Source of the DNA: Norana najaformis
Taxonomy: Eukaryota; Annelida; Clitellata; Crassiclitellata; Hormogastridae
Direction: 5' to 3'
Length of the DNA: 64,000 bases
Assembly: GCA_964023275.1 (NCBI GenBank)
Contig: OZ029916.1
Span: 48,294,362 to 48,358,361 of the forward strand
The translations under genes and the position numbers were made by a program. The notes under the pieces were generated by a model. The model ran no database searches. It saw nothing but the letters and a program-made list of their open reading frames with translations, and was not told the DNA's origin. Positions 1,286 to 63,960 of the stretch are shown here, piece after piece. Each line of letters begins with the position of its first letter. Positions within the stretch are counted from its first letter, which is position 1.

Positions 1286-1320
1286 TATAACGTCGTAAGA
1301 GACTTATTTAAAGGTGTCTG
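1286..1320 (+). promoter_or_regulatory. TATA plus start box, class D-like
   Basis: TATAA starts at 1286 and GGTGTC starts at 1313, a spacing of 27. The box reads TTTAAAGGTGTCTG. Confidence 0.6.
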
Positions 1321-1542
1321 ATATTAAACATGCGTAATAGTTCTGTAATGACATCTTGTGGCCGGTTTGGCCTTTGTTATTCCCAGTAAATAACTAAAGA
1401 AATAAATATATATGGTAAATTATTGAACAAACCGACAAAAATGAATAAATAAATATATGAATAAATAAATAATGTATTAAAAACATATCGTACCACAGTC
1501 GCCCATTTAAGGCAGTTTATGTTTAACAACGATGTACTTAAC

Positions 1543-1630
1543 AAAGATCATTAGTGTCGCCTTTCTACTCTTTAATCCATTTTACCCAGGCTTCCGACTG
1601 GCACTACCCGACCAAAGGCAGTCGGGAGTT
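1543..1630 (-). repeat. Old class E SINE-like segment
   Basis: The plus strand reads GATCATTAGTGTCGCC, then CCCAGGCTTCCGACTGGC, ACTACCCGACCAAAGGC and GGGAGTT. This is the diverged form seen in class E units. It directly abuts a younger SINE copy. Confidence 0.65.
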
Positions 1631-1745
1631 ACAGTAGCAGTTCCACTGCTCAACGTCATCTCATGGTATCAAAGGCCGTTGACGTAGCCCTCCTCCTTTT
1701 TTCAGGCTTGGGACTAGCATTACTCCCAAACAAGGCTGTTGCTAC
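1631..1745 (-). mobile_element. Short SINE copy, diverged
   Basis: The copy begins GCAGTTCCACTGCTCAACG and runs through ATGGTATCAAAGGCCGTTG and CAGGCTTGGGACT to a decayed GGCTGTTGC end. No clean target duplication was found. Confidence 0.75.
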
Positions 1746-1780
1746 TTTCCATAACAGCGTTTATTCTAAGCTAATATTAA

Positions 1781-1817
1781 TATAAATTGGCGTACAAGCA
1801 TTTTAAGGGTGTCTAAA
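1781..1817 (+). promoter_or_regulatory. TATA plus start box, class A
   Basis: TATAAA starts at 1781 and GGTGTC at 1808, a spacing of 27. The box is TTTTAAGGGTGTCTAAAT followed by ACAGTTTATTTTATGTCAT, the class A leader. Confidence 0.7.
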
Positions 1818-2059
1818 TACAGTTTATTTTATGTCATTGTCACGACCCTGTCTGCTCTCTCGTGGCGTCCAGAATCGTGACGAGAAATCTCTCTCAAGCC
1901 GATAGGAAGTTTAGTAGTTTTAATCCAATCAAACGGCGGATCTATATACAACGTCTGAGAATCACTCTCTGTTAATAAGTCTGGGCGAAAACATTTGTCA
2001 GGATCTTCCAATGTTCGGTTGCTGCTGTGTTCGCCAGAGTGATCTCCCGAGTATATAAG

Positions 2060-2410
2060 ACCTAACTGTTCCTTTTATACAGTGAAACCTAATTGCCTAC
2101 TCGAGTTTACTATCTTATGGCATCTACCAGATGCCCCCATTAATATTCTATTAATTGGGTGCCGATCGTTCATTAGGGCGTTGAGTTTTCATTAGTGGAG
2201 GCCGGCGGGTTGCCCCCAGCTTCGTGGACGAAGGCCCGTTAGGCATTCGTTCGGGCGTGACGAATAGCGTCCATTTGCCGTCATTAGCACTAGGCGTCGC
2301 CGTCCTTGCGTGGTCTTCCGACCGTCATCATATGGGCTGTCTGCTGCAGTAGCGCTGAGTCGAGGGGAATCTGACACGGCCGTGACAGTCAAGCGAACAC
2401 AATGCGAAAT
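2060..2410. other. Stretch with no recognised feature
   Basis: This is comparatively GC-rich DNA, with many CpG between 2200 and 2390. I recognise no repeat family, RNA or protein motif. It separates a class A leader from a tRNA-SINE body, so it may be an insertion into a class A unit. Confidence 0.4.
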
Positions 2411-2414
2411 AATA

Positions 2415-2690
2415 TAGTGGTTGCTCTCTGGTCAAATACCCGCCATGGCGTAATTTGTTTCTACACTTCGGCTCCATTTGCGGCCTCAACCCAATGAGCA
2501 CATGACCATTAATGGCACGATGAGGCGGTGAGGGAGAGGATTTACCACCCACAGGCATATATTGAGGCTAAGAAAAATGAAGTTACTAACACTTCATAAT
2601 AACAGCTGAGTCATAGGTACTTCTTCTTCAGTGTTTGCTGACATTTTGCGGATCCAAGATCGTTTTCCTCGGACTTACAGATTAAGTTGC
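2415..2690 (+). repeat. tRNA-derived SINE body lacking the tRNA head
   Basis: The body blocks of the tRNA-SINE are present in order: GGTCAAATACCCGCC, TTCGGCTCCATTTGC, GATGAGGCGGTGAGGGAGAGG, GAGGCTAAGAAAAATGAAG, ACACTTCAT and a closing TCAGTGTTTGCTGACATTTT module. The tRNA A and B boxes are absent. Confidence 0.75.
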
Positions 2691-2735
2691 AACTATCAAA
2701 CAGAGTAACACAAATTTTCGAAAGCAACTGCTATT

Positions 2736-2776
2736 TATATAGACAGCACGGAACCGTTTTAAAGGTGTTCAAATGC
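2736..2776 (+). promoter_or_regulatory. TATA plus start box, class B
   Basis: TATATAG starts at 2736 and GGTGTT at 2764, a spacing of 28. Downstream is the class B text AAATGCTATGTAGC, then GATTAGCCATTGTTTAGC, the start of module M. Confidence 0.75.
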
Positions 2777-2975
2777 TATGTAGCTGCCGTTTATGAATTG
2801 AGGATTAGCCATTGTTTAGCTACAACTGACGAACGGCAAGATTGTTTACGTCAAATTTACTGTTTTTTTAAAAAGAAGTGTTATTACATACTGGAGATCT
2901 ATAGATCAAAAAATCATGTGTTTATTGTCATCATATGATTACAAGATGATTATATGATTAGAAGATGGGTTTAGT

Positions 2976-3215
2976 ATTTCAAGTTCTTTCGACTGTCAAG
3001 CGAGAGATCGCAGTTTCAAATCCCCCAAGGCAGAATGTTTTTCGAAATTTTGGCTCCAGTTGCGCCTCCTACCCAATTCAGCTACATCCATCGACAACAC
3101 ATAAACCTCCGTACACGGAGTGAGTAGATCAGACGGTGAGGAAAATTGTTGGACACCCGCCCTCATCCGCCGAGACTAAGAAAAATTAAGTCACTAGTAC
3201 TTTCACACAAATGAC
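2976..3215 (+). repeat. tRNA-derived SINE with decayed head
   Basis: The head keeps CGACTGTCAAGCGAGAG (anticodon arm) and a B-box-like GCAGTTTCAAATCCCCC. The body follows with TTTTGGCTCCAGTTGCGC, CTACCCAATTCAGCTAC, CCGAGACTAAGAAAAATTAAG. The anticodon loop CTGTCAAG resembles tRNA-Asp(GTC), but the source tRNA is only a guess. Confidence 0.75.
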
Positions 3216-3375
3216 GACCTTAGGGTTTGCTCAAGGGCCACCGTCTTCTTCTTCTTCAATGCTTAGCCGCAAAGCCTTAGCGACATCTTACGGCAGCCAG
3301 GATCGTTTACATCGATCCCTCATTATAACGAAAGAGGGTAATGCCGAACACGTTAGCTTAACCTCAGCTGATGAA

Positions 3376-3414
3376 TATACAGTCTATAAGAACACATTTT
3401 AAAGGTGTCCAGAT
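3376..3414 (+). promoter_or_regulatory. TATA plus start box, class B
   Basis: TATA starts at 3376 and GGTGTC at 3404, a spacing of 28. An upstream CAGCTG lies at 3365-3370, as in other class B units. Confidence 0.65.
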
Positions 3415-3458
3415 GCTCTAAATCTTCGTGTTGTGTTTTGTGGGTTAACAAATATTTA

Positions 3459-4069
3459 GTGATGAATTCGTATATCTGGGGAGCGTTATAGCGGAGGACG
3501 GACGATGTACAAGAGACATCAGACGCAGGATTGGCTTGGCGTGCGCGATGTTCGGCAGACTAAGCAAGATATGGAGAAGCAGATATATCAATAAGAACTA
3601 AGAAATAGCTATACGAGTCATTTGTCATCCCAGTGTTGCTGTACGGAGCAGAATGCTGGTGCCTGCGCAGGGAGGACGAGAGGAGACTGCTGGTGGCAGA
3701 AATGGCCTGGTTGAGGAGAATGCTGGGCAATGGCAGGAGAAACGAGGTAATACGCAGGGAGCTTGGGCTGACGGATACAGTAGTAGACAGGGTCAGGAAA
3801 AAAGGCTCTCTTGGTTCGGGCATGTATCAAGAATGGACGACAGGAGACCTCCGGGTATGACGATGTATAGTTATGTGGAAGGTACAAGAAGCCGTGGAAG
3901 ACAACCAAAAACTTGGATGGATAACATAAGGGAGGATCTGAAGGCGTGGAACATGGATATGAGAGAAGCGGTGGATAAAACCAGAGACAGAAGTGCCTGG
4001 AGACGACAAGTTGAGGCCTCATCGTTGGCCCGTTGGCCTGACGGAGGAGAATAAAAGAAGAAAGAAAAA
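3459..4069 (+). pseudogene. RTE-type LINE C-terminal fragment with target duplication
   Basis: Plus-strand frames encode the C-terminal part of an RTE-clade reverse transcriptase: EFVYLGSVIAEDGRC at the start, then YGAECWCLRREDERRLL, SWFGHVSRMDDRRPPG and RGRQPKTWMDNIREDLKAW. At least one stop (near 3600) and two frame changes break it. The flanks AAATATTTAG at about 3450-3459 and 4070-4079 match, consistent with a target duplication. The 3' end is A/G-rich (GAAGAAAGAAAAAG). It sits inside a class B unit between the leader and module M. Confidence 0.85.
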
Positions 4070-4160
4070 GAAATATTTAGCGACATCTAACGGCCACCAG
4101 GACCCTTGAAGTAAAACCACTTCTTTGTGATAATGCGCAGTTGCTAACTAATGAATTAAT

Positions 4161-4278
4161 ATTAGTATTAATAGTTCCACTGTTTAACGACATCTTGTGG
4201 TATCAAAGGTCGTTGACGTCCCACTCCTCCAGTATTCAATATTCGGATTGGCGCTAATGTATTAAAGGTTTTGGCGGC
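4161..4278 (-). mobile_element. Short SINE copy, strongly diverged far end
   Basis: The start is intact: ATAGTTCCACTGTTTAACGA, then CATCTTGTGGTATCAAAGG. The far half is degraded, ending TTGGCGGCCTT. Confidence 0.6.
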
Positions 4279-4282
4279 CTTG

Positions 4283-4320
4283 TATAGAGTTCTAAAACAC
4301 TGATATAAAGGTATCTAAAC
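4283..4320 (+). promoter_or_regulatory. TATA plus start box, class D
   Basis: TATAG starts at 4283 and the box GGTATC at 4310, a spacing of 27. The leader AAACATAACCCAACATTA and then GTGTCTGACGACAGCTAACG follow, as in other class D units. Confidence 0.65.
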
Positions 4321-4631
4321 ATAACCCAACATTAATAAATGTATTCAGTGTCTGACGACAGCTAACGGATGCCATGTTCGTCAGACAGACGGTTTCTTAC
4401 AAGTTTCATTTCTAATAGATACTGCGTGCTCACTCGTATCGAGATAAGTATCATAATTGTCCATAAATTATTATCGTCACTTCCTTTTTCGCTTCTTAGA
4501 TTTATGTATGCTTATAACGACATCTTGTGGCTGCCAATGCCTTTCAGGTCGTCCTTAAACAAACTGTTCTTTTCGACACTTTATAATTAATCCAGCGTTT
4601 AGAAGTAGTTCGCTGAGTTAACCTGTCGAAT

Positions 4632-4748
4632 TGTAGCAGTAGTTCCATTGTTTAACGACATCTTATGGTATGAAAGGCCGTTGACTTTGCCCTCCTCCTT
4701 CGTCAGGCTTGGGACCGGGTCTAACCGACTAGAGGCAGTGGGGAGTTC
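4632..4748 (-). mobile_element. Short SINE with 11 bp target duplication
   Basis: The copy runs from TGTAGCAGTAGTTCC to GGCAGTGGGGAGTTCA. The flanks at 4621-4631 and 4750-4760 match except at one base (ACYTGTCGAAT). Confidence 0.85.
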
Positions 4749-4885
4749 AACTTGTCGAATAAACACGGCTGCAGAATGTATACGGTAAAAAGAAACATTA
4801 AAAAAATTTCAAATGCTGTTTAGCTTCCTGTCATCATTTGCGTATTGTTTAATGTTTGCCGAGAATTGACGGCCCGCCGACTACG

Positions 4886-4925
4886 TATAAAGTCTCAAGT
4901 TCCAACTAAAACGGGTGTCTAAAAT
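4886..4925 (+). promoter_or_regulatory. TATA plus start box, class C
   Basis: TATAAAG starts at 4886 and GGTGTC at 4914, a spacing of 28. The box is AAAACGGGTGTCTAAAATG. This is the clearest TATA in class C, which otherwise has weak TATA elements. Confidence 0.7.
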
Positions 4926-5531
4926 GTTCAAATGCAATAGGCGTATTATAAATTCAATAGAAACGTTTGCGTAAATTATCAAGTTAATATAGATAGTTCT
5001 GCTTTTAGATAAGTTAGTTCAAAACGAAAATTATAATTTTTTTTCAGTTTTCTGCATATTTTTTGCTTTTATTGTACAGCATTTTGATGCATATGATATT
5101 CTTTGTATACAGCTCATGAATAGAAGACGCTATTAATGAACTTAAGATTCTTCGATACCTCGCCGGGTTTGAGCATTTGGATCCTAGATGACCCCATCAG
5201 ATCCGCCTACTTTAATACTTACACCCGGCGTACAACAGACAAGGAACGGTAATCACGACCCAGAAAACAGGTCGGAAAACTCAATATTCGCAAACCGATC
5301 ATAGTAACAGTCCGATCACGAAACATTTATTAAAAAACGCGCTTTGAGACGAAATATAAGACAAACGTTTTAAAGGAGTCTAATCTGATCAACGCATCGT
5401 GCTGTGTTTTAAGACAGATTCTCGCTGGGAGGGCCGTTGGCGTCGACCTCACTTTACCCTATGCTGCCATCCGTCTTCATACGCCGAGACTCCTCTTCTT
5501 ATCGACATCTTACCCATCATGCGTACAAAAA

Positions 5532-5573
5532 TATATAGCGTCGATAGAAAGTGTTTTAAAGGTGTCTAAAATG
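5532..5573 (+). promoter_or_regulatory. TATA plus start box
   Basis: TATATAG starts at 5532 and GGTGTC at 5561, a spacing of 29. The box is GTTTTAAAGGTGTCTAAAAT. Confidence 0.7.
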
Positions 5574-5910
5574 AGCATTTGAAGTGCACAGTGTTTATTA
5601 GTAGCTTTTGTTTTTAACGACCGTGTGTCATAACAAACATGATTAGCGTCGTCCTCTTCCTTTGTCCAGTCTTCCGATTGTACCACTCCATTAAAAATGG
5701 AGGCGGAGTTAAGGGTTGCGTCGTCGCAGCGTTAGGGAGCAGCTGACGTAATTGTAATTGAGTGGTATTCTTTATGATTAATGTCCATTGTTTAAGGACA
5801 TATCACGACTGCCATGGCCGCTTACGTTGACATCACCTCGGTTTTTTTAAAATTATATATTGTTCTGTAACCGCAGGGGCTCTTTTCTTATCTTTTTGGC
5901 GCAAAGGTCG

Positions 5911-6025
5911 ATAGTAATTTCTCAGTTTAACGATATCTTATGGCATCGAAAGCCGTTGAAGTCGTCCTCCTCCTTTATCCAGGCTTGAGACTGGCACTAC
6001 CCAAATAAAGGCAGTGGTGGAATTT
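5911..6025 (-). mobile_element. Short SINE copy shared by both duplicates
   Basis: The copy runs from ATAGTAATTTCTCAGTTTAA through GTCCTCCTCCTTTATCCAGG to GGCAGTGGTGGAATTT. The same diverged start (AATTTCTCAG) is seen in the duplicate, so this insertion is older than the duplication. Confidence 0.85.
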
Positions 6026-6639
6026 TGTTTCAATTCAACGGAGCTTCTGAATATAAACGGAACAAGGATAACCTTTGTCTACCGTCATTTAACGTATACT
6101 AAAACTTTTGCCTTAATATTCAGTTTTAGCTTAATATAAGTAAGCCGAAAATAAAAAAAAACATTTTCGCTTATTTGCTTTGATATTTTAAATGGCATTC
6201 TTTGCTTGTCTTTGCATACAGTTTTAAATCTGGTGGCACCATTAGTGATCTTATGAATGTATAGCGCTTCTTCTAGACCACATAGAGTGTGGATAATTGG
6301 AGCCTAGATGACCCCATAAGATACGCCTACTTTAGTGTGCACAGAGGGTGTACAACCGACAATCACGAACCGGAAGAATCCTCCGAAAACTCAACATCCT
6401 GAACAAACTCGTGTAAAACACCACCGGGGCAAACCGGTCAGAGTAGCAGTCAGAAGAGCAAAAACATGAGAAAAAAGTCCTTTGTGAGTCGAAGTGTAAG
6501 ACTTCGTTGTTTGGTTAATGAATTACAGGTTTTAAACGAATATTAAAGTTTACAGGACAACACTGAATACAGTTCTTACCGTAAGTTTTAACTGCACTAT
6601 AGGCTTCATACACGGTGAAACGGATGGAAAAACGACTAA

Positions 6640-6677
6640 TATAACGCCGTAAAGAGGTGATTTAAAGGTGTCTAAAC
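6640..6677 (+). promoter_or_regulatory. TATA plus start box, class D
   Basis: TATAAC starts at 6640 and GGTGTC at 6667, a spacing of 27. The leader AAACATAATCTAGCATAAT and an M variant (CACGACATTTTATGGATGCC) follow. Confidence 0.75.
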
Positions 6678-6838
6678 ATAATCTAGCATAATAGAGTTTA
6701 GAGTTTCACGACATTTTATGGATGCCATGGTCGTAAAACTGGTAGTTTCTTAAAAAGTTTCGTTTTGAATCGATACTGAATGCCCACTAGTTTCATAACT
6801 GTCCACCCATTAATATAAATATTGTAGTTGTTCCAGGG

Positions 6839-6960
6839 TTAGTAGTAGTAGTTCCTCAATTTAACGACAGCTTATGACATCAAAGGCCGTTACCGTCGCC
6901 CTCCTCCTTTATCCAGGCTTGGGACTGGCACTACCACCAAACAAGGCAGTGGCGGAGTTT
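6839..6960 (-). mobile_element. Short SINE copy with (TAG)n end
   Basis: A near-consensus copy begins with four TAG/GTA repeats and ends GGCAGTGGCGGAGTTT. The duplicate at 57.74 kb lacks it, although homology is fading at that point. Confidence 0.85.
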
Positions 6961-6988
6961 CAATGGACGAAACGCATGCGGTCATTTA

Positions 6989-7026
6989 TATATAGTCTCA
7001 GTCAAACAAATTTTAAAGGTTTTTAA
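6989..7026 (+). promoter_or_regulatory. TATA plus start box, decayed box
   Basis: TATATAG starts at 6989. The box TTTTAAAGGTTTTTAAAG has GGT at 7018, a spacing of 29. An M copy with AACATCTTGTGGCTGC follows near 7050. Confidence 0.55.
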
Positions 7027-7136
7027 AGATTCCACTGCTTTTTTTAGTGTTAATAACATCTTGTGGCTGCAAGGCCGTTAATTCTATCTTATATCTGAGT
7101 GATTAATTAAGTCCTTTTCCACGCGAATAGATAGAA

Positions 7137-7172
7137 TATATAGTGTCGGAAACACGCGATTTAAATGTGACT
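7137..7172 (+). promoter_or_regulatory. TATA with decayed box
   Basis: TATATAG starts at 7137. The expected position 28 bases on reads ATGTGA within TTTAAATGTGACTA, a decayed box. A related pair lies near 46434. Confidence 0.45.
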
Positions 7173-7561
7173 ACGGAAAACTGTATATTTGTTGCAATAT
7201 CGAGGTCAGGAGTTGACCCCGACTTCTGTGCAAAAGTGGAAAAGTAGCTGGCGATCTTTTTTCTATATTTTCTGTGTAAAGAGTCTGTTTCATAACGAAG
7301 ATGATCTGAGTCACCCTCCATCTAAGCTTACTAATGGAACCACTAGAGAGTTAAGGGTAACATAGACATAGCGATACAATACAGCACATGAATATGTAGC
7401 TCAGTAGTCATTTCGTATTGCACAAACCGATGTCATTCATTGTGAGTAGTTTTCATTGATTAGTTTACATCTTCCGGCTGTCAGAGCCGTTTACGTCGAC
7501 ATCAACTCACTTACACTATGCAACATAACGGGTTGAGACATCGACTAAGGAAAATCAGGTT

Positions 7562-7600
7562 TAAATACCATTTGTGAAAGGGAATTAAAGGTGTCTAAAA
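7562..7600 (+). promoter_or_regulatory. Start box with weak TATA, class E
   Basis: The box GAATTAAAGGTGTCTAAAAT is intact, with GGTGTC at 7590. The position 28 bases upstream reads TAAATA, a weak TATA. Confidence 0.5.
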
Positions 7601-7864
7601 TGCCGTAATTTAATGACAACGTAGAATGTTACACGTCATCTTATGGCTACCAAGAATATTTGCGCCGACTTAAGTGCAAAACGGGATGTACACATGGCGA
7701 TTTCGTGTTTTGTACTTGTTTTACGAAGCTCTATTAAAACGAAGATGATTAGCATCGCCGTCCTCCTTTATCCGAGTTCCGCACTGGGACCACACGACTT
7801 AAGGCAGTAGTAGATGTAAATTAGCGGTTTGAGTGCAGTTGACCTTTTTGCACTAGTACTAAAT

Positions 7865-8170
7865 AAGCCTCCTCCAATCTCAGGAAGGCTTCCACAGGTG
7901 TTTTTTGCTCAGTTTTCACTTTTTTTAACCCCCCTCGTCCCAGAAAGCCTTCCACAGAATAGTTTGTAGTAACCTCCTTCAATCCCAGAAAGGCTTAGAG
8001 GAACCGATTTTTCCAATAGAGAATGTGTTTTGAGGATATTTTTCAACCCGTTTCAATCCTTTTAGCTACCCATAGTAACCATCTTCGATCCCAGAAAGGC
8101 CTCGACAGAATATTTTGTTGTAACCTTCTTCAATCCCAGAAAGGCTAAATTCTTAGAGGAACCGAATTTT
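7865..8170 (+). repeat. Imperfect repeats with CCCAGAAAGGC core
   Basis: AATCCCAGAAAGGCTTAGAGG, or a close variant, recurs at about 7870, 7945, 7990, 8090 and 8135. Two copies are followed by GAGGAACCGATTTTTCCAAT or a near match. The family is not recognised. Confidence 0.6.
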
Positions 8171-8528
8171 TCCAATTAGAGAAAATTTTTGGTAGTGATT
8201 ATAAAAAAAATTCTTGTTGAAAAATTTTGATTATAAGAAAAGATCATTGACGATTTTGAATATTATTAATTGATAACGGAAAAAAGTTGTGCGTGTGGCC
8301 CCTCATAGGACGAAGAGTATTATGCGGTAAGTTGAGCAAATTCATGTTCTGTGGACATCACAGGGCTCTTCTTGCGATGCGTTTACCAGCGTTGCATTCA
8401 GCACAGCTATCGTCTCAAACATGGTGTTATTTTAACCGTACCATGTAGCAGTTGCAGTGTAGGTACAAAGTCTGTGACACGATTATGACATCCATGTGGT
8501 GGTACAAAAGCGATACAAAAGTTATACA

Positions 8529-8812
8529 ACATTGGGAAACGCTCTGAAGGTGTTATAAAAAGTTCTTAATGAGCTTCTAGAGACCCCTGAGAGGTTTGAG
8601 GATGATTCTGATGGGTTAGAACAGCAAATCATTGCAAAAGCTCTAAACCAACTCATAGAACAAGAGTTTGGTGATTTAGAACAAAGTATGGTAAATGATA
8701 GGCCATCAGGTTTTGTACAGTGTCGTAGACTAGTTTTGAAAAGGATAAAAACGACTTTTTTGTCGTTCAACCTCTTAAAGGTTTTTGTTTTTTGTTTTCT
8801 GTTTGTTTTTTA
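8529..8812 (+). pseudogene. Unrecognised protein-like frame
   Basis: In the frame that includes GGA at about 8533, one stop codon near 8555 is followed by about 80 codons of hydrophilic, protein-like sequence. It contains LLETPERFEDDSDGLEQQI, then QLIEQEFGDLEQSM and GFVQCRRLVLKRIKTTF. There is no early Met, so it may be an exon or the end of a decayed transposon protein. I do not recognise the family. The acidic helix followed by a basic Arg/Lys segment could suit a nucleic-acid protein, but that is speculation. Confidence 0.35.
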
Positions 8813-9015
8813 ATCCAATTCATATGGCGGTGAAGCAGTGGGTTCAACACCTAGGTTAACATGTGATCTAGAATTCCTTTGTAGTTCTGCCAATATTCGC
8901 TATATGGTAGTACTGTCCGCTTAGGCTATGTTGGTCACTTTCGTTCACTAGATGGCCAGAAACGAATCTAAACAGAGCAGTCGTAAGGGCAGACCAAGCA
9001 AATTAGTGTCGGCTG

Positions 9016-9175
<160 letters not shown>

Positions 9176-9672
9176 ATATGTACATGTATATATTTACAAT
9201 TTCTATTTTCGTGTTGTAGAGCATTGGGTGCATGTGATTTTTGTGTGTACAATTTTAGATTGGAAACCCCCAACAATGAATTTATGATAAATGAGATCGA
9301 CTTAAAGATTTCACAATTTGAGAAATGGGCGTCTAAAGGAACCTATCAGATGCGCGTACTTGACTATGTACAGCCAGTGTACAGCAGACTAAGATCAGTA
9401 GGCCTAATCACGATCTGGAAGAAAAGTCAAAAACTCAAAATCCGACAATTTCGTGTAAAATAACAATACTGTAGGTGGCCAAGCTGATCGTAGTAGCACT
9501 TCGAAGATGAAAATAATTAAGAAATTAACCGCTTTTAGACGAAAATGTTGCGTTGGTGTTATATCGTATTGGTTAACGACCTGTTACGTCTGCCAAGGAC
9601 CGTAAACGCAGACTTTACGTTAAACGAACTCCGTATCTCACAAAGAACTTCATATTTAACAAATATGAAGTT

Positions 9673-9713: not shown

Positions 9714-9751
9714 AGTTTATTTTGTGTTATGAAACGAATATCAACCACGGT

Positions 9752-14016: not shown

Positions 14017-14017
14017 G

Positions 14018-55545: not shown

Positions 55546-55585
55546 TATGTAACTTTGGTGAAAGCGAATTAAAGGTGTCTAAAGT
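55546..55585 (+). promoter_or_regulatory. TATGTAA plus start box, class E
   Basis: TATGTAA starts at 55546 and GGTGTC at 55574, a spacing of 28. The unit is a close copy of the one 305 bp upstream. Confidence 0.68.
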
Positions 55586-55658
55586 GCTTTATATTTTTAG
55601 CATGGTCAATTCGTTAACGACATTTAATGGCTGCCAGGGACATTAAGGCAGTCTTGAG

Positions 55659-55797
55659 TGGCCATCGGACTCTTTTTTGGCCATCAGGCTCTTTTGTGGC
55701 CATCAGGCTCTTTTGTGGCCGTCAAGGCTCTTTTGTGTCCGTCAAGGCTTTTCTGTGGCCATTTAGGCTCTTTTCAGTTGCCATAAAGGCTTTTTAG
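55659..55797 (+). repeat. Minisatellite of about 20 bp units
   Basis: GGCCATCAGGCTCTTTTGT and variants repeat about seven times. A looser set continues at 56480-56660 (GGCCACGTGGCTCCTC, GGCCGAAACGGCTCTTTTC). Many units have self-complementary GGCC...GGCT ends. Confidence 0.88.
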
Positions 55798-55869
55798 CGT
55801 ATTTGTATATTTTCGGTAATTTTTCGGTGTTTTGTTTTTCGTTCTTTTTTTCTTTTTTTCTTTTGTTTT

Positions 55870-56160
55870 TACAAAATACAAATGAAATAAAATATATTTA
55901 ACGAAATCAACAAAGACTATATACAAATTAGGTAGGTGCAACAATTACAGGGAGCCAATGTTTACAGACAATACCATTTACTACTAAGATGGTGGTGTCC
56001 TAACAAAGTGGTATAGCCATGTGTATTTTATCAAGTAAAATGACTTAATGTTACAAAAGGTAAAATTGATAAACATATAGAAATGTGAGTTTTTCACACA
56101 GGCCCATGTCGTATAAAAGACATAACATTATCTTTAATAATTATACACTAATAAAGTGAT
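55870..56160 (-). pseudogene. Jockey/I-type LINE 3' end
   Basis: AATCAACAAAGACTATATAC and GGTGCAACAATTACAGGGAG match the 3' region near 38050-38110. A pyrimidine-rich stretch precedes it. Confidence 0.65.
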
Positions 56161-56197
56161 GTTCTAGGCCCGTTAAAAGGTTTGAACTCGACCCGAC

Positions 56198-56236
56198 TAT
56201 ATAAGGAACTAGGTAACGTTTTAAAGGTGTCCAAAT
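56198..56236 (+). promoter_or_regulatory. TATA plus start box, class B
   Basis: TATATAA starts at 56198 and GGTGTC at 56226, a spacing of 28. Confidence 0.76.
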
Positions 56237-57385
56237 GCTACCTTTATCTTTTTTGACGACATCAGCCAGGAACGTATGCCAGGAACGTTTTTGTGAACGA
56301 TACACTAAACCAAAACTTAGTCATTTCAGTAGTAGTAGTAGTAGCTCAGTTTAGCGACATCTTGTGGCATCAGCGGCCGATGCCGCCGTCTTGTGGCGTT
56401 GAATTCTTTTCAGCTTTCTTTTAAATATATGCACATATACATAAATTGTTGAAAACTGTCAAATGTATATTTTCAAATGGCCACGTGGCTCCTCTCGGCA
56501 TTTAGATTTTTTCAAGGTCATATCGGCTATCTTACATGGCCATAGTTATTCTTTTGATGGCCGAAACGGCTCTTTTCTGTTTTTCCTCTTCAAATTATGT
56601 GTTTTTTAAAATTATGCATTGTTTTGTGACCGTATGGGCTCTGTTTGCTAACTTTTTGGCCGCAAAGGCCGATAGTAATTTCTCAGTTTAACGACATCTT
56701 ATGGCATCGAAAGCCGTTGAAGTCGTCCTCCTCCTTTATCCAGGCTTGGGACTGGCACTACCCAAATAAAGGCAGTGGTGGAATTTTGTTTCAATTCAAC
56801 GCAGCTTCTGAATATAAACGGAACAAGGATAACCTTTGTCTACCGTCATTTAATGTATACTATAACTTTTGCCTTAATATTCAGTTTTAGCTTTACATAA
56901 GTAAGCCGAAAAGGAAAAACATTTTCGCTTATTTGCTTTCATATTTTAAATGGCATGCTTTGCTTGTAGTATTTTTTGCATACAGTTTTAAATCTGGTGG
57001 CACCATTAATGAACTTATAATTGTATAGCGCTTCTTCTAGACCACATGGAGTGTTGATAATTGGAAACTAGATGACCTAATAAGAATCACCTACTTCAAT
57101 GTGTACAGAGGGTGTACAACCGACATTGGGCTGCAATCACGAGCCGGAAGAACCGTCCGAAAACTCAAAATCCTGAACAAACTCGTGTAAAACAACATAG
57201 GGACGTCAAATCGGCCAGAGTAGCAGTCAGAAGAACAAAAAATAAGAAAACAGTTCTTTGTGAGTCGAAGTGTAAGAGTTGACTTCGTTGTTTGGTTAAT
57301 GAATTACAGATTTTAAACGAATATGAATAAGTTTACAGGACAACACTGAATACCGTACTGCACCATAGCTTCAATACACGCTGAA

Positions 57386-57499
57386 TAGTAGTTCCTCAGT
57401 TTAACGACATCTTATGGCATCAAAGGCCGTTGCCGTCGCCCTCCTCCTTTATTCAGGCTTGGAACTGGCACTACCCCCAAGCAAGGCAGTGGCGGAGTT
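57386..57499 (-). mobile_element. Short SINE with an empty site in the duplicate
   Basis: ATACACGCT is duplicated at 57374-57382 and 57500-57508 (a few extra bases of the left flank also match). The corresponding point at about 6606-6617 reads CTTCATACACGGTGAAACG without an element. Confidence 0.93.
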
Positions 57500-57530
57500 A
57501 TACACGCTAATTCGGGTGGAAAACGACGAA

Positions 57531-57568
57531 TATAGCGCCGTTAAGAACTGATTTAAAGGTGTCTAAAC
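57531..57568 (+). promoter_or_regulatory. TATA plus start box, class D
   Basis: TATAG starts at 57531 and GGTGTC at 57558, a spacing of 27; it is the duplicate of the site at 6640. Confidence 0.75.
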
Positions 57569-57755
57569 ATAATCTAACATAATTAATATCGTTTAGTGTT
57601 TTGCGACATTTTACGGGTGCCATAGTCGTAAAACTGGTGGTTTCATAATTAGACATTTTCGTTTTTAATCGATAGGGCATGCCCGCTCGTTTCATAACTG
57701 TCTGCCCGTTAACATAAATTTTATAGTTGCTCAATGGTTTGGCGTAACTGATGTT

Positions 57756-57796
57756 TATATATGTTGCCTTAAAAGCGTTTTAAGGGTGTCTAAATC
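57756..57796 (+). promoter_or_regulatory. TATA plus start box, class A
   Basis: TATATA starts at 57756 and GGTGTC at 57785, a spacing of 29. Confidence 0.72.
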
Positions 57797-58154
57797 CAGG
57801 GTATTTCGTGTCATTGTATAGGCTTTAAACAGAATGTCTTGTTGCTGGAATTCGATAGTAATTTTTTACATATTTTTTAAATTTTACATAGCAGTCGTTG
57901 CATATGGTAATTTTGTTTGCAGTTTTAGATTTGAAATCGCTATTAATGAACTTGTGATAAATTAGATCTTCTTCAAGACTTAACAAAGTTTGAATATTTG
58001 GAGCCTGGCTGACCCCATCAGATCTGTGTTCTTCAATGTGCTGAGATGGCGAACAACCATGGAAGTTCTACATGCATCAAAAATATAACTTTTCCATTAT
58101 TATTTTAGACCACAGAAAGAAATAATCCCTCTTTTATTAAACATACTATGGTGT

Positions 58155-58273
58155 AGTAGTAGTAGTTCCACAGTTTAACGACAACTTATGACATGAAAGG
58201 CCGTTTTCGTCGCACTCCTCCTTTATCCAAGCTTGAGACTGCCATTACCCCGAACAAGGCAGTGGCGGAGTTT
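58155..58273 (-). mobile_element. Short SINE with 10 bp target duplication
   Basis: The flanks ACTATGGTGT (58145-58154) and ACTACGGTGT (58274-58283) match but for one base. Confidence 0.9.
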
Positions 58274-58299
58274 ACTACGGTGTTAAAAATGCTTATATT

Positions 58300-58340
58300 T
58301 ATATTTATTGTAGTGAGAGCGTTTTAAAGGTGTCTAAATG
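58300..58340 (+). promoter_or_regulatory. TATA plus start box, class A
   Basis: TATATTT from 58300 and GGTGTC at 58329 give a spacing of 29. Confidence 0.65.
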
Positions 58341-58394
58341 CAGTTTATTTTATGTCGTAATTTGGGTATCATACAGTCTTGCCTTTGCAATAGT

Positions 58395-58590
58395 CTTGTA
58401 GTTAGTAGGAAGCTGAAGCAGCGACGGACAGGACTTGCCAGCCGCCGTCATATGACGAGGCTGAAACAAATTTAAGTAACGCCTCCTAATAATGACAGCC
58501 TCATTGCTGCTTCTACTTCAGTCTTTATTGATTGTTTGCGGATGTTATGATATGATGTTATGATCGTCTACTTCGGATTTAGTGAATGAA
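58395..58590 (+). repeat. tRNA-SINE, partial
   Basis: AGTCTTGTAGTTAGTAGG keeps a decayed A box; the body has AGCAGCGACGGACAGGAC, CATATGACGAGGCTGAAAC and CTACTTCAGTCTTTATTG. Confidence 0.7.
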
Positions 58591-58627
58591 AGAACTATTC
58601 CTTAAAACGATTTGACGCAGCTGCTTT

Positions 58628-58760
58628 ATATATACCGCAACGCAAACGTGTTAAAGGTGTCCTAACGACATCTTATGGCATCAGATGCCGTTGTCGTCGC
58701 CCTCCTAATTTTTCCAGGCTTGGGACTGTCACTACGCCCAAACAAGGTAGTGGCCCATTC
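58628..58760 (+). promoter_or_regulatory. TATA plus start box with SINE joined to the box
   Basis: TATATA near 58628 and GGTGTC at 58656 give a spacing of 28. A SINE-like segment (58664-58755) begins immediately after the box (GGTGTCCTAACGACATC), replacing the usual leader. Confidence 0.7.
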
Positions 58761-59378
58761 AACAAAATAGAGAAAAAACTTCTTTCATAGCGACGGTTAA
58801 ATAGGTTTTAAAGGTGCCTAAAGATACCCTTGTATTTTTAGTGCCTAAACGACATCTTGTTGCTGCTAACCTTACCTCACATTGCAGAAACTAGGGGCTT
58901 GATACACATACCCTATCAAATATTGGAGGGATGGAATCCTACAAGTTAGATGTGGGTAGGAAACATTTTTGTAACAAAGATGACTACAATCGGTCTTTCC
59001 CTTCTTAATCCAGCCTTAGGACGGGCACCACCCGACTAAAGACAATGGCCAAGTTTCTCTCTTGACATGATTCTGAGACTAGCACAGTCTGTATATTGGA
59101 GGCACCTCAAGTGGCGTCTGGATATTCAAACGGGCGGCGGTGGTGAAGGATCTCGCCCGATAAATTAATTGATAACTAGCAGGTGGAGTATTGATTATTA
59201 CAAATGAGAATTTTAACAAGACTATAGTAAAACTGCAATTATAATTGCTGTAAAAAACATAAACAATTGAGGATGGTATTATTATCCATTGTTTAGCGAC
59301 ACCTTGTGGCCTTCGACTTTATTTCTGAAAAATTGTGGCCTCGAAAATTTCATTGCCCCGAAAGAAAGTGAACACTAC

Positions 59379-59418
59379 TATATAGCGTCAGAAAAGCAAT
59401 ATTAAAAGGTGTCTGAAC
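59379..59418 (+). promoter_or_regulatory. TATA plus start box
   Basis: TATATAG starts at 59379 and GGTGTC at 59408, a spacing of 29. Confidence 0.7.
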
Positions 59419-59520
59419 AGATCGTTTCGCAATCAGGGCCGTTGACATCGACTAACTTATCCTTTTCAGTATTTGTCGACCGAAAATGTAAATCATCGAC
59501 GGATCAGAGTCGAATTCTTT

Positions 59521-59590
59521 TATATAGCGCAGGTTTATGGATTTTAAAGGTGCCTTAAGGTGTTTAACGACATCTTGTGGCTGCATGGCA
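59521..59590 (+). promoter_or_regulatory. Compact unit: TATA, box and module M
   Basis: TATATAG starts at 59521 and the box GGTGCC at 59549, a spacing of 28. M starts only 10 bases later (GTTTAACGACATCTTGTGGC, then CGACGTCG). This is the shortest complete unit. Confidence 0.7.
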
Positions 59591-59594
59591 GTCG

Positions 59595-60110
59595 ACGTCG
59601 TCTTTAATAATTCTTTGCAAGCGTTGTTTAGCGCAGTTGATCTCAAGTCCGAATTTATGGGTCTTTTGGTCCAGTATATCCGTTCACATGACTTGGATTT
59701 CAAGGATCTCGGCAGAGAGCCACGTCATTATCATAATCCAGATCAGTGATTCGCTCCACCAAATATATGTACACCCAGCTGTCCTTGTTCAATGATTTCC
59801 TCCATGACCTTATCCATTGGGCGCAGTAACATGTCTGGTGCCATTTTACAACCCTATCACACTTCGCAATCTACCCTGAATCATTTTGATGTTGCACCCT
59901 CAATGCTCAGCGTGTCCGTGAAAAAATTCTTCGATAGGCCAACAATTTTCTCCGGCACTCCCTGAGACAGAAGCAGCCTCCAGATGGCATCACAATCAAA
60001 AGAATCAAAGTTGTCCTCAGATCGACATAGCAATCCACAGCGACTGTCTAAACTCTCTACTAGTTTGAATTTTCCCTCTCTAGGTGAGTATGCATTGCTA
60101 TACATCGGTT
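59595..60110 (-). pseudogene. RTE-type LINE reverse transcriptase core fragment
   Basis: The minus strand gives FDSFDCDAIWRLLLSQGVPE and KIVGLSKNFFTDTLS, then MDKVMEEIIEQGQLGVHI. A decayed catalytic block DLDYDNDVALC follows, where the usual Ala of the YADD motif is Asn, and then GLEINCAK. Stops are present. Confidence 0.8.
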
Positions 60111-61015
60111 GAATTCGCTCTCCTCCCTTCGTCTCATCTGCATCAAGTGTTTCTTAACCCTTTAAAAAAGAGGGGAAAAGGAGGACCGTTCTAACATTCA
60201 AACGATCAGCGGAGGTGAAAGATCTCCCCAATAAATTAATTGAATGTCATCAGGGTCGAGTATAGAGTATGAGAAATGAGAATACGGTTATACTACAGTT
60301 AGAGTGGTGATATGACTCAAAACATTTGATGATGTTATTGTCATCCATTGTTTAACGACGCCTTGTGGCTGTCAGGGCCGTTGACGCCGACTTTCCCTTA
60401 GCTATTTAAATAGTTTTCAGCTGAAAATCGAAACATCATTGTTAGTTCCGAATTAAAGGCAGTGCCGAAGATTTAGACCAATCAAACTTATTGAAACACT
60501 ATCACTGATTGACGAAGCAGCGCCAAATTTATTTAGCATGTTTGATCTTAAAAGAGGTGTGCAACTGTTGCAAACAGCTGCGCTAAAAGTAATGTTTTAT
60601 TTAGGATTTTCTCATTAAAAATGTGTCTTTCTTGAAAATAAATAAAGAAATAACATTGAAATAAATTAGTTCGTCCGTAAGGGCCATCTTGGAGACATCA
60701 AATCCCAAGGAACTGAAAGACTGACGCAACATTTACTCCGTTACCATTGACAACCGAAGACTTCACTCGACGCTGCACATACGGCGACCACGGTTGGTCG
60801 AAAGAGAGGTTGTGCAGTCCACGTGTCTTCAGCGATCTCCGAATTCAAGCGATCGTAGCCTACTTGAAATCGAATCCGGAATAAAATGTGAATTTTATTA
60901 GCTTTTTGATGCTGATCCACATCAATTAATATTTTAAAATTCTTATATTTGTCGTGTTCATTGTCTTGTCTTGTCTTTAGAAATCTTCGATCCGAAGTTG
61001 AACTTGATATAAATC
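60110..61015. other. Degraded class E sequence and unrecognised DNA
   Basis: GATCAGCGGAGGTGAAAGATC and TGAATGTCATCAGGGTCGAG (60200-60260) are class E text and an M copy lies at 60345-60395. A weak TATA/box pair is near 60528/60556. Nothing is recognised at 60600-61015. Confidence 0.45.
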
Positions 61016-61189
61016 ACCTGTCGATAGATCGATGAATGGATTACTACAGTTTAACGACATCTTATGGCATCAAAGACCGTTGGTGTCGGTTGGAAATATT
61101 CTTGTATAGTTCTCACTCTGTCGCCTACGATTCCTCGCTGAGCCGATGAACATATGGCGTTTAAATAGATGTATTACTTACTTACTCAT

Positions 61190-61593
61190 TTATCTCTCCC
61201 GTGTGGTGGGGCTATGCTGGGGCACAGGCTAGAGCTCGGCTCCAGGCTTTGATGCGGAGACTTGTGCGTCTCCTCTATCTTCCTGGGAACTCCCCAACGT
61301 TCGATGAACTCTGTGGCATAGCTGATGCTCGTCTCTTTAAAACAATCTTGAACAACTCAAATCATGTCTTACATCAGCCACTCCCACCGATTAAAACCCT
61401 CAGTTATTCCCTACGGCCCTACACCCATGATCGTATTATTCCTCCTGCTGACAATCTAACGCGTAAATGTTTTATTATTAGGATGTTGTATGAATATTAA
61501 GTTTTCTTGTGTTCTTAAATACTTGTAAACCGATGTGCGATTAGCTATTGGTTAATAAAGAATATACTTACTTACTTACTTACTATACAGGTT
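61190..61593 (+). pseudogene. CR1-group LINE C-terminal end with (TTAC)n tail
   Basis: The frame reads WWGYAGAQARARLQALMRRL, PTFDELCGIADARLFKTIL and RPYTHDRIIPPADNLTRKC to a stop at 61500. The 3' region ends in TTAATAAAGAATATACTTAC and five TTAC units. It is nearly identical to the reversed 3' end at 36093-36215. Confidence 0.85.
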
Positions 61594-61893
61594 TTTGTTT
61601 GACGACGCTGTGTTGTAACAAAAAAAAGATTAGCGAGGCTTCCTACTGGCACCACCCGACTTAAGCCGGTGGCGTATTTAAGGGTTGCGTAGAAGTAGCA
61701 ATAAAACGCATTTCATTATTATACAACTTGGTAATTCGAATTGTAATTGTAGTTGTAACAACTTTTGTACTGCATCCCTTGTGTGAATTTCCATTGTTTA
61801 ACGACATCTTGCGGTGGCCAAGATCCGCTGACGTCGAAATCACGGCAAATATGCCAAAATCTGTCATATTAAAGAAATTAGACGAATGATGCT

Positions 61894-61933
61894 TATATAA
61901 AGCCGGAGAAAGCGAAATACAGGTGTATAAAAT
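61894..61933 (+). promoter_or_regulatory. TATA plus start box, class E
   Basis: TATATAA starts at 61894 and the box GGTGTA at 61922, a spacing of 28. Confidence 0.68.
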
Positions 61934-61954
61934 GCGTTGCATTAATAGAAGCGT

Positions 61955-62029
61955 CGAGGAGGGCGATGGTTGTACAACGGCCTTTGATGCCATAAGATGT
62001 CGTTAAACTGAGGAACTACTACTACTAAT
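61955..62029 (+). mobile_element. 5'-truncated short SINE, plus sense, (TAC)n tail
   Basis: GAGGAGGGCGATGG, CAACGGCCTTTGATGCC and GAGGAACTAC with three TAC units. It lies directly downstream of a class E box, where M normally begins. Confidence 0.88.
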
Positions 62030-62426
62030 ACGACTAACTCTGTCACTGTGTTTGACATTTTTTTGCATATATAGCTGGATTAGGTGTATGTGGTATTTTG
62101 TATACAGTTTAAGATTGGAAGCTGCTATCAATTAACTTATGAATATATAGTGCTGCTTCGAGACCTCAGAGAGTTTGAGTATTTGGATCATAGATGGCCC
62201 CATCAGATCCGCGTACTTTAATGTGAACAGCCATTGTACAACCGATGAAAGGCGGTCATCACGAGCTGGAAGAAACGTCCGAAAACTAAAGATTCCCAAC
62301 AGAATCATGTAAAATAACACCAGGACGTCGAACCAACCACGTTCGGATTCCCAAACACGATATTTCGTTGAAAAGATCTACATCGTTTCGATGACTGACG
62401 TCTATTAAGTCTGTATGTTTATAGTA

Positions 62427-62700
62427 AAACGGGTGTTTAAGATATGCAAATAAAATGGGCGTCTTAACAATCAAGTTGAAACGGCTATCTAAATAATCAA
62501 ATTAAGCTTGGCAGTTTTAGTTTTTGTAATCAACTGAAAAAAATGGATATAACAAATATTTTGCAATTTTTTGTTATTTTGTTTAACTTTAGTAGCATAT
62601 GTGATTTTTCGCATAAAGTATTACAGCGATAGCGGCCATTAGTGAACGTACACTTATATAGCGCTGCTTCGAGACATCACAGTTTGGGTGTTTGAAGACT
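62427..62700 (+). repeat. Class C unit
   Basis: GTAAAACGGGTGTTTAAGAT, ATGGGCGTCTTAACAATC, GAAACGGCTATCTAAATAATC and the AT-rich body with TTGGCAGTTTTAG follow in class C order. No proper TATA lies at the expected distance. Confidence 0.7.
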
Positions 62701-63612
62701 AGACGACCAAGTCAGATCCGCGTACTTTGTTGTGTATAGCCGGTGTACTCATCATGTACCTGAGTTGGTTTGGGACAGAAATATTGAAACATATCAGCCC
62801 TTGCGAGGAAGTGAACCCTAACCTTCGGGGTCGACAGTTCACCGTAATATATATGCAGGCCTTGTTAGCAACATTGTCCATCTGGAACTAGATTTCAGTA
62901 AACTGGTCTCGTTAACTACATTGGTTAAAGTAACGTCAACGCGCCGTTGTTTCTTTAATTAAGAGATTTTAATCTCCGGCTAGCACCGGACACCTTCATT
63001 GATGTGACGCCCATTCAAACTGGCAGCAGTGATGAATTGTAATTGTAATTGAAATCGAACATCTATAAAGCGCCACTTAGGAAACAGTGGCGCTCCCGAC
63101 TTGAACAAACAAAAAGGATTTAACCTTTGAAGGATCTCACCCGATTAATTCATCGGAAAAAAATTAACAGGGTCGAGGCCATACGGTCGTCATAGAAAAC
63201 ATTTTATCGACGTCAACGGCCATTGCTGCCATACAGACGTCTACTCCTACTACCAGCATTTCACAACACTCAGTGTTTAAAGCCATTTTACTTTTCCCAT
63301 GGTCGTAAACTGATTTTTTCTCGAAAATATCGGTTTTATTTGATATTACGTATCTGCTCGTTTCCTTCTGCGCTTCATTGCTACATGTTTATAACGACAT
63401 CTTGTGTTGCAAGGTCGTTCACATCGACCTAAAACTTTTAGTTTTTTTCATTGGGGAAAACCCAGCGATTAATTTCCAATGGTTTAACGACATACTATGG
63501 CATCAAAGCCGTTGACGTCGATGGGAACAAATGTTTTTCTACACTTTTCACATTTAATTGTATTTGTTGACTCGACAACAAAACGCAGCTGAAAATTATT
63601 TTGACTGCAAAA

Positions 63613-63960
63613 AACGTTTTAAGGGTGTCTAAATTCAGCCCATTTTATGCCATTATTTGGTTTTTAAACAGAAAGCGAGATGGTCTATTGGTTACGCGGT
63701 GGTCAAATCCAGGGCAGAAATTTGTTTCAAGATCTCGGCTCCACTTGCGCCCCCTACCTAAGTCAGCTATAATGAGTAGTACACTGGCCATTACTGGGGA
63801 GATGAGGCAGCGAGGAAGAGGACTTACCTCCCACACTCTTATGCCGAGACTAAGAGAAATTAAATTGCAAAGGTTTCATAATCGTGACTGTCTCATAACT
63901 GTTTCTTCTTCAGTTTTCATCGACATCTTATTTTTGCCAGAATCATTTACCTCGATCTTG
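63613..63960 (+). repeat. Class A unit: start box and tRNA-derived SINE
   Basis: The box AACGTTTTAAGGGTGTCTAA is at 63615-63634 with a weak ATTATTTT 28 bases upstream. The SINE has GGTCTATTGGTTACGCGG, CAAGATCTCGGCTCCACTTG, CGCCCCCTACCTAAGTCAGC and GATGAGGCAGCGAGGAAGAG, ending TCGACATCTTATTTTTGCC. Confidence 0.8.

Follow-up and report, generated by a model that had tools for sequence, protein, structure and literature searches.

The question raised by this locus is whether a 64,000-nucleotide stretch of the annelid Norana najaformis (the window hereafter) carries a family of small transcription units or a composite repeat equipped with its own promoter. A block called HEAD, made of a TATA element and, about 28 bp further on, a 24-bp box, recurs as a plus-strand array within the window. 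GGTGTC is present 55 times on the plus strand and 8 times on the minus strand (mean 9.8, maximum 19 in 100 Markov-1 controls), and a TATA lies 24-32 bp upstream of it in 32 of the 55 plus-strand cases and in 1 of the 8 minus-strand cases. At 26-31 bp, 50 TATA-GGTGTC pairs were counted on the plus strand and 1 on the minus strand (TATATA being counted more than once) versus a control mean of 0.39 and maximum of 2, so the recurrence reported by the first-pass annotation is real in this window. Its statement that all but one unit share the plus strand also stands: an nhmmer profile built from 43 seeds spanning -50..+14 gave 55 matches over the window at E<0.1, 54 plus and 1 minus. The full box TTTAAAGGTGTCTAAA has 6 exact copies, on the plus strand. 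All cited coordinates contain the TATA; GGTGTC is not exact in all of them (GGTGTT at 2764, GGTGTA at 61922), so that the original figure of about 60 units takes in degenerate boxes. Other repeat types are equally oriented in iterated profiles (E<=1e-3): D13 15+/0-, E body 8+/0-, D1 with its 3' part 81+/6-. Our preferred reading, to which we give about an even chance, is that HEAD would be a promoter-like module within an old composite repeat, beside which a twister-bearing retroposon, D1, has repeatedly inserted. Coordinates are collected in Table 1.

Table 1. Main features of the window (positions from its first letter).
Feature	Position	Strand	Basis
Same-strand array, 54 HEAD blocks and one reversed copy	1266..63636	+	nhmmer profile, E<0.1
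HEAD class D, D1 retroposon just upstream	1266..1321	+	
HEAD class B	2718..2775	+	profile
Block with duplicate at 56602-57746, 90% identity	5843..6847	+	
HEAD class D; D1 empty site at 6620	6632..6678	+	
HEAD class A; tRNA-like stretch (A/B boxes by eye) ~55-75 bp past box	9656..9713	+	
HEAD class A	11078..11133	+	profile
HEAD class C	16603..16664	+	profile
HEAD class C	25313..25370	+	profile
Collinear composite B - E - D13	28791..29333	+	
Collinear composite A - A20 - A14 - B - E - D13	30509..31474	+	
Sole reversed HEAD, class B like	32369..32423	-	
HEAD D - A20 - A14 - HEAD B	34761..35282	+	
HEAD class C	37511..37569	+	profile
HEAD class B	39870..39928	+	profile
HEAD class B, top profile score; two tandem D1 just upstream	41117..41176	+	
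HEAD class B	44229..44287	+	profile
Two HEADs class C, core2/D15/D10 in between	52845..53339	+	
HEAD class B	56189..56238	+	profile
HEAD class D; D1 ends 59 bp upstream of box	57518..57569	+	
HEAD class A	63581..63636	+	profile
D1 insertion with target duplication; missing from paralogue at 6620, flanks 90% identical	57386..57511	-	
Two tandem D1, same 13-bp repeat between and on both flanks	40871..41106	-	
Type-P1 twister match, 66.5 bits, E 6.9e-13	40917..40986	-	
Type-P1 twister match within D1, 61.8 bits	1192..1260	-	
Five D1 units in tandem, spacing 123-124	11670..12291	-	
Reversed D1 inside a box, TAAAGGTGTCTAAA duplicated	43330..43439	+	

D1, the commonest partner of HEAD, is a minus-strand retroposon of about 115 bp which starts with a twister-like ribozyme and finishes with an ACT-type tail. 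Type-P1 twister (RF03160) matches number 38, of which 36 are on the minus strand and 33 have E<0.03; the top match (66.5 bits) is full length (68 positions), and the Rfam gathering score of 67.2 is reached by none. The conserved core is retained in the two best copies. Among 34 of the 38 matches (near-copies 11975, 11854, 12101 and 5961 being left out), stems 2-4 are paired in 80-90% of cells versus 28-46% over all pairs when slid; the P1 stem is paired in 35% of cells. The covariation signal is weak: of 500 shuffles, 35 to 113 reach the observed measures. The first base of D1 corresponds to the base after the twister cut. We infer from these sequences that the D1 twister self-cleaves. No hammerhead ribozyme appeared among matches up to E=10 in the window.

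D1 is flanked by target duplications of variable length (8-14 bp), and one empty site was found (6620). Of 40 copies, 12 (including 5 tandem neighbours) have end repeats of at least 10 bp, versus 3% of mismatched pairings. In 6 of 11 listed copies, chosen by eye with tandem neighbours left out, AACTCC comes directly after the target duplication or after 1-2 A (1146, 10958, 31263, 40996, 57389 and 58163); at 43330 it comes after one G. Viral and prokaryote collections contained no exact match to a 34-base D1 core, which is what one would expect of an animal element. Such features recall RTE-superfamily elements bearing twisters and their short derivatives: a twister match stands at the very 5' end, most of P1 is gone, the tail is a simple repeat and target duplications are present (PMC7761336); that paper also cites, as in preparation, 5'-terminal RTE twisters that are truncated yet still competent. 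Unlike the RTE elements described there, D1 is only ~115 bp long, noncoding, and inserted in a single orientation next to HEAD. Metazoan non-LTR retrozymes are tandem repeats of 150-450 bp with type I hammerheads (PMC7229834). D1 resembles them as a short noncoding repeat with a self-cleaving ribozyme (here a match only), sometimes in tandem, with low GC and target duplications when present; it differs in having a twister instead of a hammerhead and in occurring mostly as monomers.

D1 has a preferred distance to the box: of the 20 D1 for which a box could be recognised, 11 lie 53-59 bp from it, in one orientation (p 7e-9 if independent, related copies not being independent trials). At least 6 of these 11 have different target duplications. 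The score>0 cut behind this count was picked after the scores were seen; with a stricter cut, set at the 90th percentile of random windows, a HEAD accompanies 10 of 47 D1, 6 of them at 57-59 bp. Some boxes lacking a TATA adjoin D1 sequence immediately upstream (30526, 43857 and 36985). Dictyostelium TRE5-A and yeast Ty3 are retroelements that land at a fixed distance near promoters, as D1 does near a promoter-like module; the D1 target is however a repeated promoter-like module instead of tRNA genes, and D1 carries a ribozyme match and no genes.

A serious possibility, though one we hold somewhat below even, is that the D1 endonuclease, and no promoter activity at all, sets this distance by preferring the ATT^AAACG border of HEAD. 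The base before the inferred nick is a T in most D1 target duplications, followed in several by AAAC or similar (by eye), and an enzyme favouring T^AA(A)C where HEAD ends could be enough to set the D1 position, with no promoter involved. However, at 31263, 36703 and 36863 D1 has entered other sites that follow a T, so that sequence preference alone looks loose.

In the preferred reading of a promoter-like module accompanied by D1, HEAD would have been multiplied head to tail within an old noncoding composite repeat, and D1, whose RNA is minus-sense, would have inserted repeatedly, always in the same orientation, right beyond the TATA end of HEADs. D1 would then borrow HEAD, with transcription starting close to the D1 5' end, and the twister would take off a short leader, so that the D1 RNA begins exactly at the first base of the element. 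A likely self-cleaving ribozyme would stand precisely where a short retroposon begins, the retroposon having a preferred spot beside promoter-like blocks. If true, this would explain how a promoterless element is expressed while its exact 5' end is still copied, and the role of 5' ribozymes in retroposons could be tested clearly. A stronger version, which we consider unlikely, makes D1 a promoter parasite: promoterless, it would target the start site of a minus-pointing HEAD of snRNA type, land in sense and have the short host leader cut off by the twister, which would restore an RNA starting at the first base of D1, HEAD arrays spread by DNA duplication serving as a safe landing and expression strip.

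Fixed TATA-to-box spacing with a changing spacer had been proposed for HEAD, and this holds versus the box-side flanks. The spacing test covered 42 of 51 units (30526, 43857, 15065, 58656, 43450, 58815, 29002, 32883 and 62432 were left out); the TATA-box window was obtained for 149 of 167 within-class pairs, those out of register at the box being skipped. Its length is identical in 60% of the 149 pairs, with a mean change of 0.6 bp, versus 3.3-4.9 bp for equal-length stretches beyond the box. D1 is a younger repeat (78-83% identity), and its 28-bp windows, too, shifted little in length (0.27-1.42 bp on average, 42-81% without change); the contrast therefore depends on the flank windows, which are of similar age. 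Two separate conserved blocks are present in HEAD, -29..-22 (TATA) and -14..+9 (40 units of classes A-D, class E left out), the conservation of GGTGTC being inflated as this motif served to choose the copies. The spacer between them diverges like the flanks, yet its length hardly changes. The spacing thus looks constrained, and the array suggests selection on promoter-like spacing inside noncoding repeats.

A decayed satellite-like repeat without promoter function, whose blocks would be a protein-binding site with fixed spacing or contiguous ancestral sequence conserved by descent, is in our opinion rather unlikely. Such a repeat would accommodate a similarity of mostly about 62-76% between the flanking bins of copies from one class, units with no visible coding capacity, tandem and block duplications, and neighbouring boxes in places only 115-177 bp apart; descent predicts, however, a similar length drift in the spacer, the length of which is nearly fixed.

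From the two blocks, the constrained spacing and the changing spacer, HEAD may be or have been a promoter module, and the suggestion of a composite repeat with a built-in promoter is borne out to the extent that sequence allows. As in snRNA-type promoters (PSE and TATA), a conserved block of ~20 bp (~24 bp over -14..+9) stands at a fixed short distance, a gap of ~7 bp, from the TATA (-29..-22). The Drosophila PSEA is 21 bp long, with a separation of 8 bp (PSEA-PSEB) or 12 bp (U6 PSEA-TATA) (PMC4227766), and the DNA contact of SNAPc lies 8 bp upstream of where TBP binds (PMC9758055). The box differs from these promoters in matching the human PSE consensus no better than expected by chance (mean 7.25/12 on the minus strand and 6.2 on the plus strand; random 6.5, 95th percentile 8). 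The HEAD sequence for comparison with the -60..-35 region of snRNA genes is TTTAGACACCTTTAAAACG. The HEAD TATA is near-palindromic. Since the 24-bp block lies beside the TATA and D1 lands ~30 bp on the other side, a minus-strand promoter fits at least as well as a plus-strand one, and we lean slightly to a minus-strand snRNA-type promoter, with a PSE-like box, the TATA and a start ~30 bp on. Nematode piRNA clusters have SNPC-4-bound snRNA-like promoters, and likewise gather many small promoter modules in noncoding DNA (PMC7884074); the HEAD array comes from a different animal group.

The opposite direction, with plus-strand noncoding units having a TATA at -28, a start at the box and one short RNA each, is quite unlikely. 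The TATA-to-box distance does fit Pol II and type-3 Pol III, and within a class, homology runs on for longer beyond the box than before the TATA. By eye, the plus strand of class A shows A- and B-box-like sequence; no tRNA fold as in a Pol III SINE was found, ARAGORN giving no tRNA gene in the window or in a class A consensus. In 30-bp bins after the box, T4 occurs in 10 to 21 of the 58 units, versus 22% (about 13) expected from random 30-bp windows, with 20 and 21 units at +75..+105 and +95..+125; this excess is mild, without a sharp peak, and leaves the terminator position unfocused. No Rfam family matches either strand of the window at gathering score, twister matches are mostly on the opposite strand, and a 24-bp conserved block around the start is unusual for Pol II or III. 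The first-pass proposal of small units starting at the box thus found no backing in RNA families, tRNA genes or focused T-runs.

The preferred reading, a promoter-like module in a composite repeat, agrees with the layout of the window. HEAD units are no independent small genes: the array to which they belong is composite, old and decayed, runs along one strand and repeats the order A-B-E-D13. Self-comparison of the window gave 985 direct versus 154 inverted pairs (36,672 and 10,535 bases covered), collinear chains reach ~1.4 kb, and a 1-kb block is present twice. Head-to-tail multiplication by block and tandem DNA duplication accounts for the HEAD copies facing nearly all one way. Of the five divergent classes described earlier, A, B and E are positions within one recurring composite, C and D recur in other orders, and the recurring order weakens the idea of independent families. 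Terminal duplications around HEADs do not exceed the control (3 of 58 versus 5.9%, all three in D1 sequence), so separate retroposition of HEAD units was rejected. It is very improbable that HEADs themselves are SINE or LINE insertions with an orientation bias: class A resembles a tRNA-SINE, and many core2 blocks look like the 3' end of a retroposon with an ACT-like tail behind it (minus-sense in 34 of the 40 non-D1 copies), but HEADs have no target duplications, the class order is not expected from independent insertions, and transposon-protein remnants occur on both strands. For core2, alifold on a MAFFT alignment gave zero energy for real and shuffled alignments alike.

No report of the HEAD array or D1 was found in the literature searched. 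In viral contigs, the HEAD pattern gave 5 single matches, taken as chance; a profile rescan of these five loci found one HEAD-like sequence, no D1 and no array. Candidatus Nephrothrix is a symbiont dwelling in earthworms, and one reverse transcriptase relative, 71% identical, is filed under a MAG of this organism, which points at most weakly to an earthworm host. The transposon-protein remnants number 6 on the minus strand and 4 on the plus strand by eye, some backed by Pfam or relatives. The closest relatives of the P-element remnants (78-85% identical) are metagenome or assembly proteins, and a further transposon-protein search gave one named match, in Branchiostoma (48%).

Boxes containing GGTGTC are concentrated on one strand of the window, with 55 occurrences on the plus strand and 8 on the minus strand, compared to a mean of 9.8 and a maximum of 19 in 100 first-order Markov control sequences. 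TATA-GGTGTC pairs separated by 26-31 bp number 50 on the plus strand, where TATATA was counted more than once, and 1 on the minus strand (control mean 0.39). With one count per box, a TATA is present 24-32 bp upstream of 32 of the 55 plus-strand boxes and of 1 of the 8 minus-strand boxes; a stricter TATA matrix finds the element at 26-31 bp in 24 of 48 chosen units, compared with 3.2% of the control windows. A profile of this repeat block (HEAD), made from 43 seeds that were all on the plus strand and whose own matches are guaranteed by construction, gave 54 plus matches and 1 minus match at E<0.1. These counts confirm the same-strand array proposed in the first-pass annotation. The boxes that it quoted are present, two of them in degenerate form (GGTGTT at 2764, GGTGTA at 61922).

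Within HEAD classes, the TATA and the box are more conserved than their surroundings. The information content of 40 units of classes A-D forms two separate blocks, the TATA at -29..-22 and 24 bases at -14..+9 (GAAAGCGTTTTAAAGGTGTCTAAA); there is little signal at -21..-17 and a weak one at -46..-36. Unit selection used GGTGTC and partly its neighbours, and bases -14..-7 played no part in it. The TATA-to-box distance is the same in 60% of 149 same-class pairs (42 units), with a mean difference of 0.63 bp, at 65% identity of the inner spacer. Equal-length stretches beyond the box, the only side of HEAD compared, are 66-72% identical, keep the same length in only 11-46% of cases and differ by 3.3-4.9 bp. 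Inside D1, a younger repeat (78-83% identity), length change is likewise small (0.27-1.42 bp), so that the flanks, which have diverged to a similar degree, must carry the argument; with that caveat, spacing was constrained as the spacer changed, in agreement with the first-pass annotation.

The orientation is common to other repeat types of the array (D13, 15+/0-; E body, 8+/0-; D1 with its 3' part, 81+/6-). Self-comparison of the window at E<=1e-6 gave 985 direct and 154 inverted pairs, covering 36,672 and 10,535 bases respectively. Transposon-protein remnants are found on both strands (by eye, 6 minus and 4 plus), hence the bias does not extend to everything in the locus. A P-element-type transposase with THAP and RNase H domains among them suggests a metazoan host, and one indirect hint points to an earthworm or other annelid. 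Classes recur in the order HEAD A with an A20/A14 body, HEAD B, HEAD E and D13, with gaps and losses, forming collinear chains of up to ~1.4 kb, and the block 5843-6847 is duplicated at 56602-57746 with 90% identity. Flanking duplications around HEAD units did not exceed the control level. Together with the recurring order and the block repeats, this makes block and tandem DNA-level duplication of an old composite the best explanation of the single orientation.

The commonest repeat in the window is D1, a retroposon of ~115 bp on the minus strand, which the first-pass annotation did not describe as an element. In an Rfam search filtered by E-value, one half of it matches the type-P1 twister ribozyme, read along the minus strand; of 38 matches, 36 are minus and 2 plus, and 33 have E<0.03. 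The best match is full length with 66.5 bits (E 6.9e-13) and the lowest of the rest has 21.9 bits; none of the 38 reaches the Rfam gathering score of 67.2. The two best copies retain the consensus AACUCCGCC, GUCCCAAGCC and UAAAGG.GGAGGG. In 34 copies, pairing is kept in 80% of cells for stem 2, 90% for stem 3 and 88% for stem 4; over all pairs the figure is 76.7%, versus 28-46% with partners slid. The outer stem P1 is only 35% paired, and covariation beyond stem pairing is weak. The tandem D1 units resemble those of metazoan retrozymes and may give rise to small circular RNA.

Read in its own sense, D1 consists of the twister, core2 (the conserved 3' part, ~45 bases) and an ACT-type tail. End repeats of at least 10 bp were found in 12 of 40 copies (5 being tandem neighbours) versus 3% of mismatched pairings, and D1 with its duplication at 57386-57511 interrupts a sequence left whole in the paralogue at 6620. 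Of 11 copies examined, 6 have AACTCC behind the target duplication, either directly or past 1-2 A. Twister cleavage is reported between U and A (PMC6154101), a site located just before AAC in the Rfam consensus; by our placement D1 would therefore begin at the first base 3' of the cut. Insertion of a cleaved RNA would produce just such a loss of P1. Truncated active twisters are described at the 5' ends of RTE retrotransposons (PMC7761336), and D1 probably derives, in shortened form, from a twister-bearing RTE element. Core2 has 74 copies at E<1e-6, 34 of them within D1; it contains, in its own sense, AAGATGTCGTTAAACA, often followed by a GGAAACTACT-like tail, and looks like a retroposon 3' end common to several families.

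Near-full-length D1 copies are oriented alike in 47 of 49 cases (p 4e-12 if independent), and 10 of 11 with good target duplications have the main orientation (p 0.012). A HEAD scoring above zero lies within 110 bp downstream on the plus strand for 20 of these 47 D1, and none for 27; the distance from D1 end to box is 53-59 bp in 11 of these 20 (p 7e-9 if independent). A stricter HEAD cut retains 10 D1 with HEAD, 6 at 57-59 bp. At least six D1 beside HEADs (1146, 10958, 34339, 40996, 57389, 58163) have differing target duplications and adjoin classes A, B and D, so that these are separate landings.

The first base of D1 is ~30 bases beyond the TATA, measured along the minus strand. HEAD is similar to snRNA-type promoters in that a 24-bp block stands ~7 bp away from the TATA: the Drosophila PSEA is described as spanning 21 bp and standing 8 bp from PSEB or, in U6, 12 bp from the TATA (PMC4227766), and SNAPc as touching DNA 8 bp upstream of the TBP site (PMC9758055). 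By this resemblance, HEAD would be directed along the minus strand, with RNA starting where D1 sits. Two results count against the minus reading. The human PSE consensus, as given in PMC5493778, fits the HEAD box no better than chance allows, and within-class homology reaches further beyond the box than beyond the TATA, as would be expected of a plus-strand transcript. The plus reading, in which boxes are transcript starts, would place the 24-bp block across the start, and we know of no Pol II or type-3 Pol III promoter with such a block. On balance, the minus strand is slightly favoured. D1 may then borrow HEAD for its expression, its twister trimming the leader from RNA started at HEAD. A strong alternative explanation of the fixed D1-box distance is a simple preference of the endonuclease for the edge of HEAD; in several copies, the nick inferred from D1 duplications falls at this edge, ATT^AAACG.

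Coordinates of D1 junctions and of other elements in the window
Position	Strand	Feature
1146, 10958, 31263, 40996, 57389, 58163		D1, AACTCC after duplication (58163 judged by eye, one mismatch in its target duplication)
43330		D1, one G between target duplication and AACTCC
34339, 36703		D1, junction overlapping or mutated
36863		D1, truncated
4640		D1, junction unclear
11670-12291		Five tandem D1 units, spacing 123-124
29428-29481, 55302-55341		Core2, examples
9701-9810, 30009-30120	+	Class A tRNA-like stretch ~55-75 bp past box: A box, anticodon-like GTC, B box (by eye); not called as tRNA by ARAGORN
24376-24483		E body, GGTGTCTAA-like motif ~every 30 bp (GGGTGTCTAA, GACGTCTTAA, CGGTTGTCTAAA; by eye)
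36103-36242, 61445-61584		140-bp inverted pair with 96% identity; the array appears to be much older
22875-23148		Minisatellite, 22/44-bp, TTAGCA/TTAACA units
55658-55795		Minisatellite, 19-20 bp, GTGGCCATCAGGCTCTTTT
13988-14413	+	142-residue frame, weak PNMA (gag-like) match, E 0.008, under Pfam cut-off
17184-19835	-	P-element-type transposase, uninterrupted frame of 883 residues; domains: THAP, RNase H, GTP-binding insertion; nearest relatives (78-85% identity) are proteins from metagenomes or assemblies
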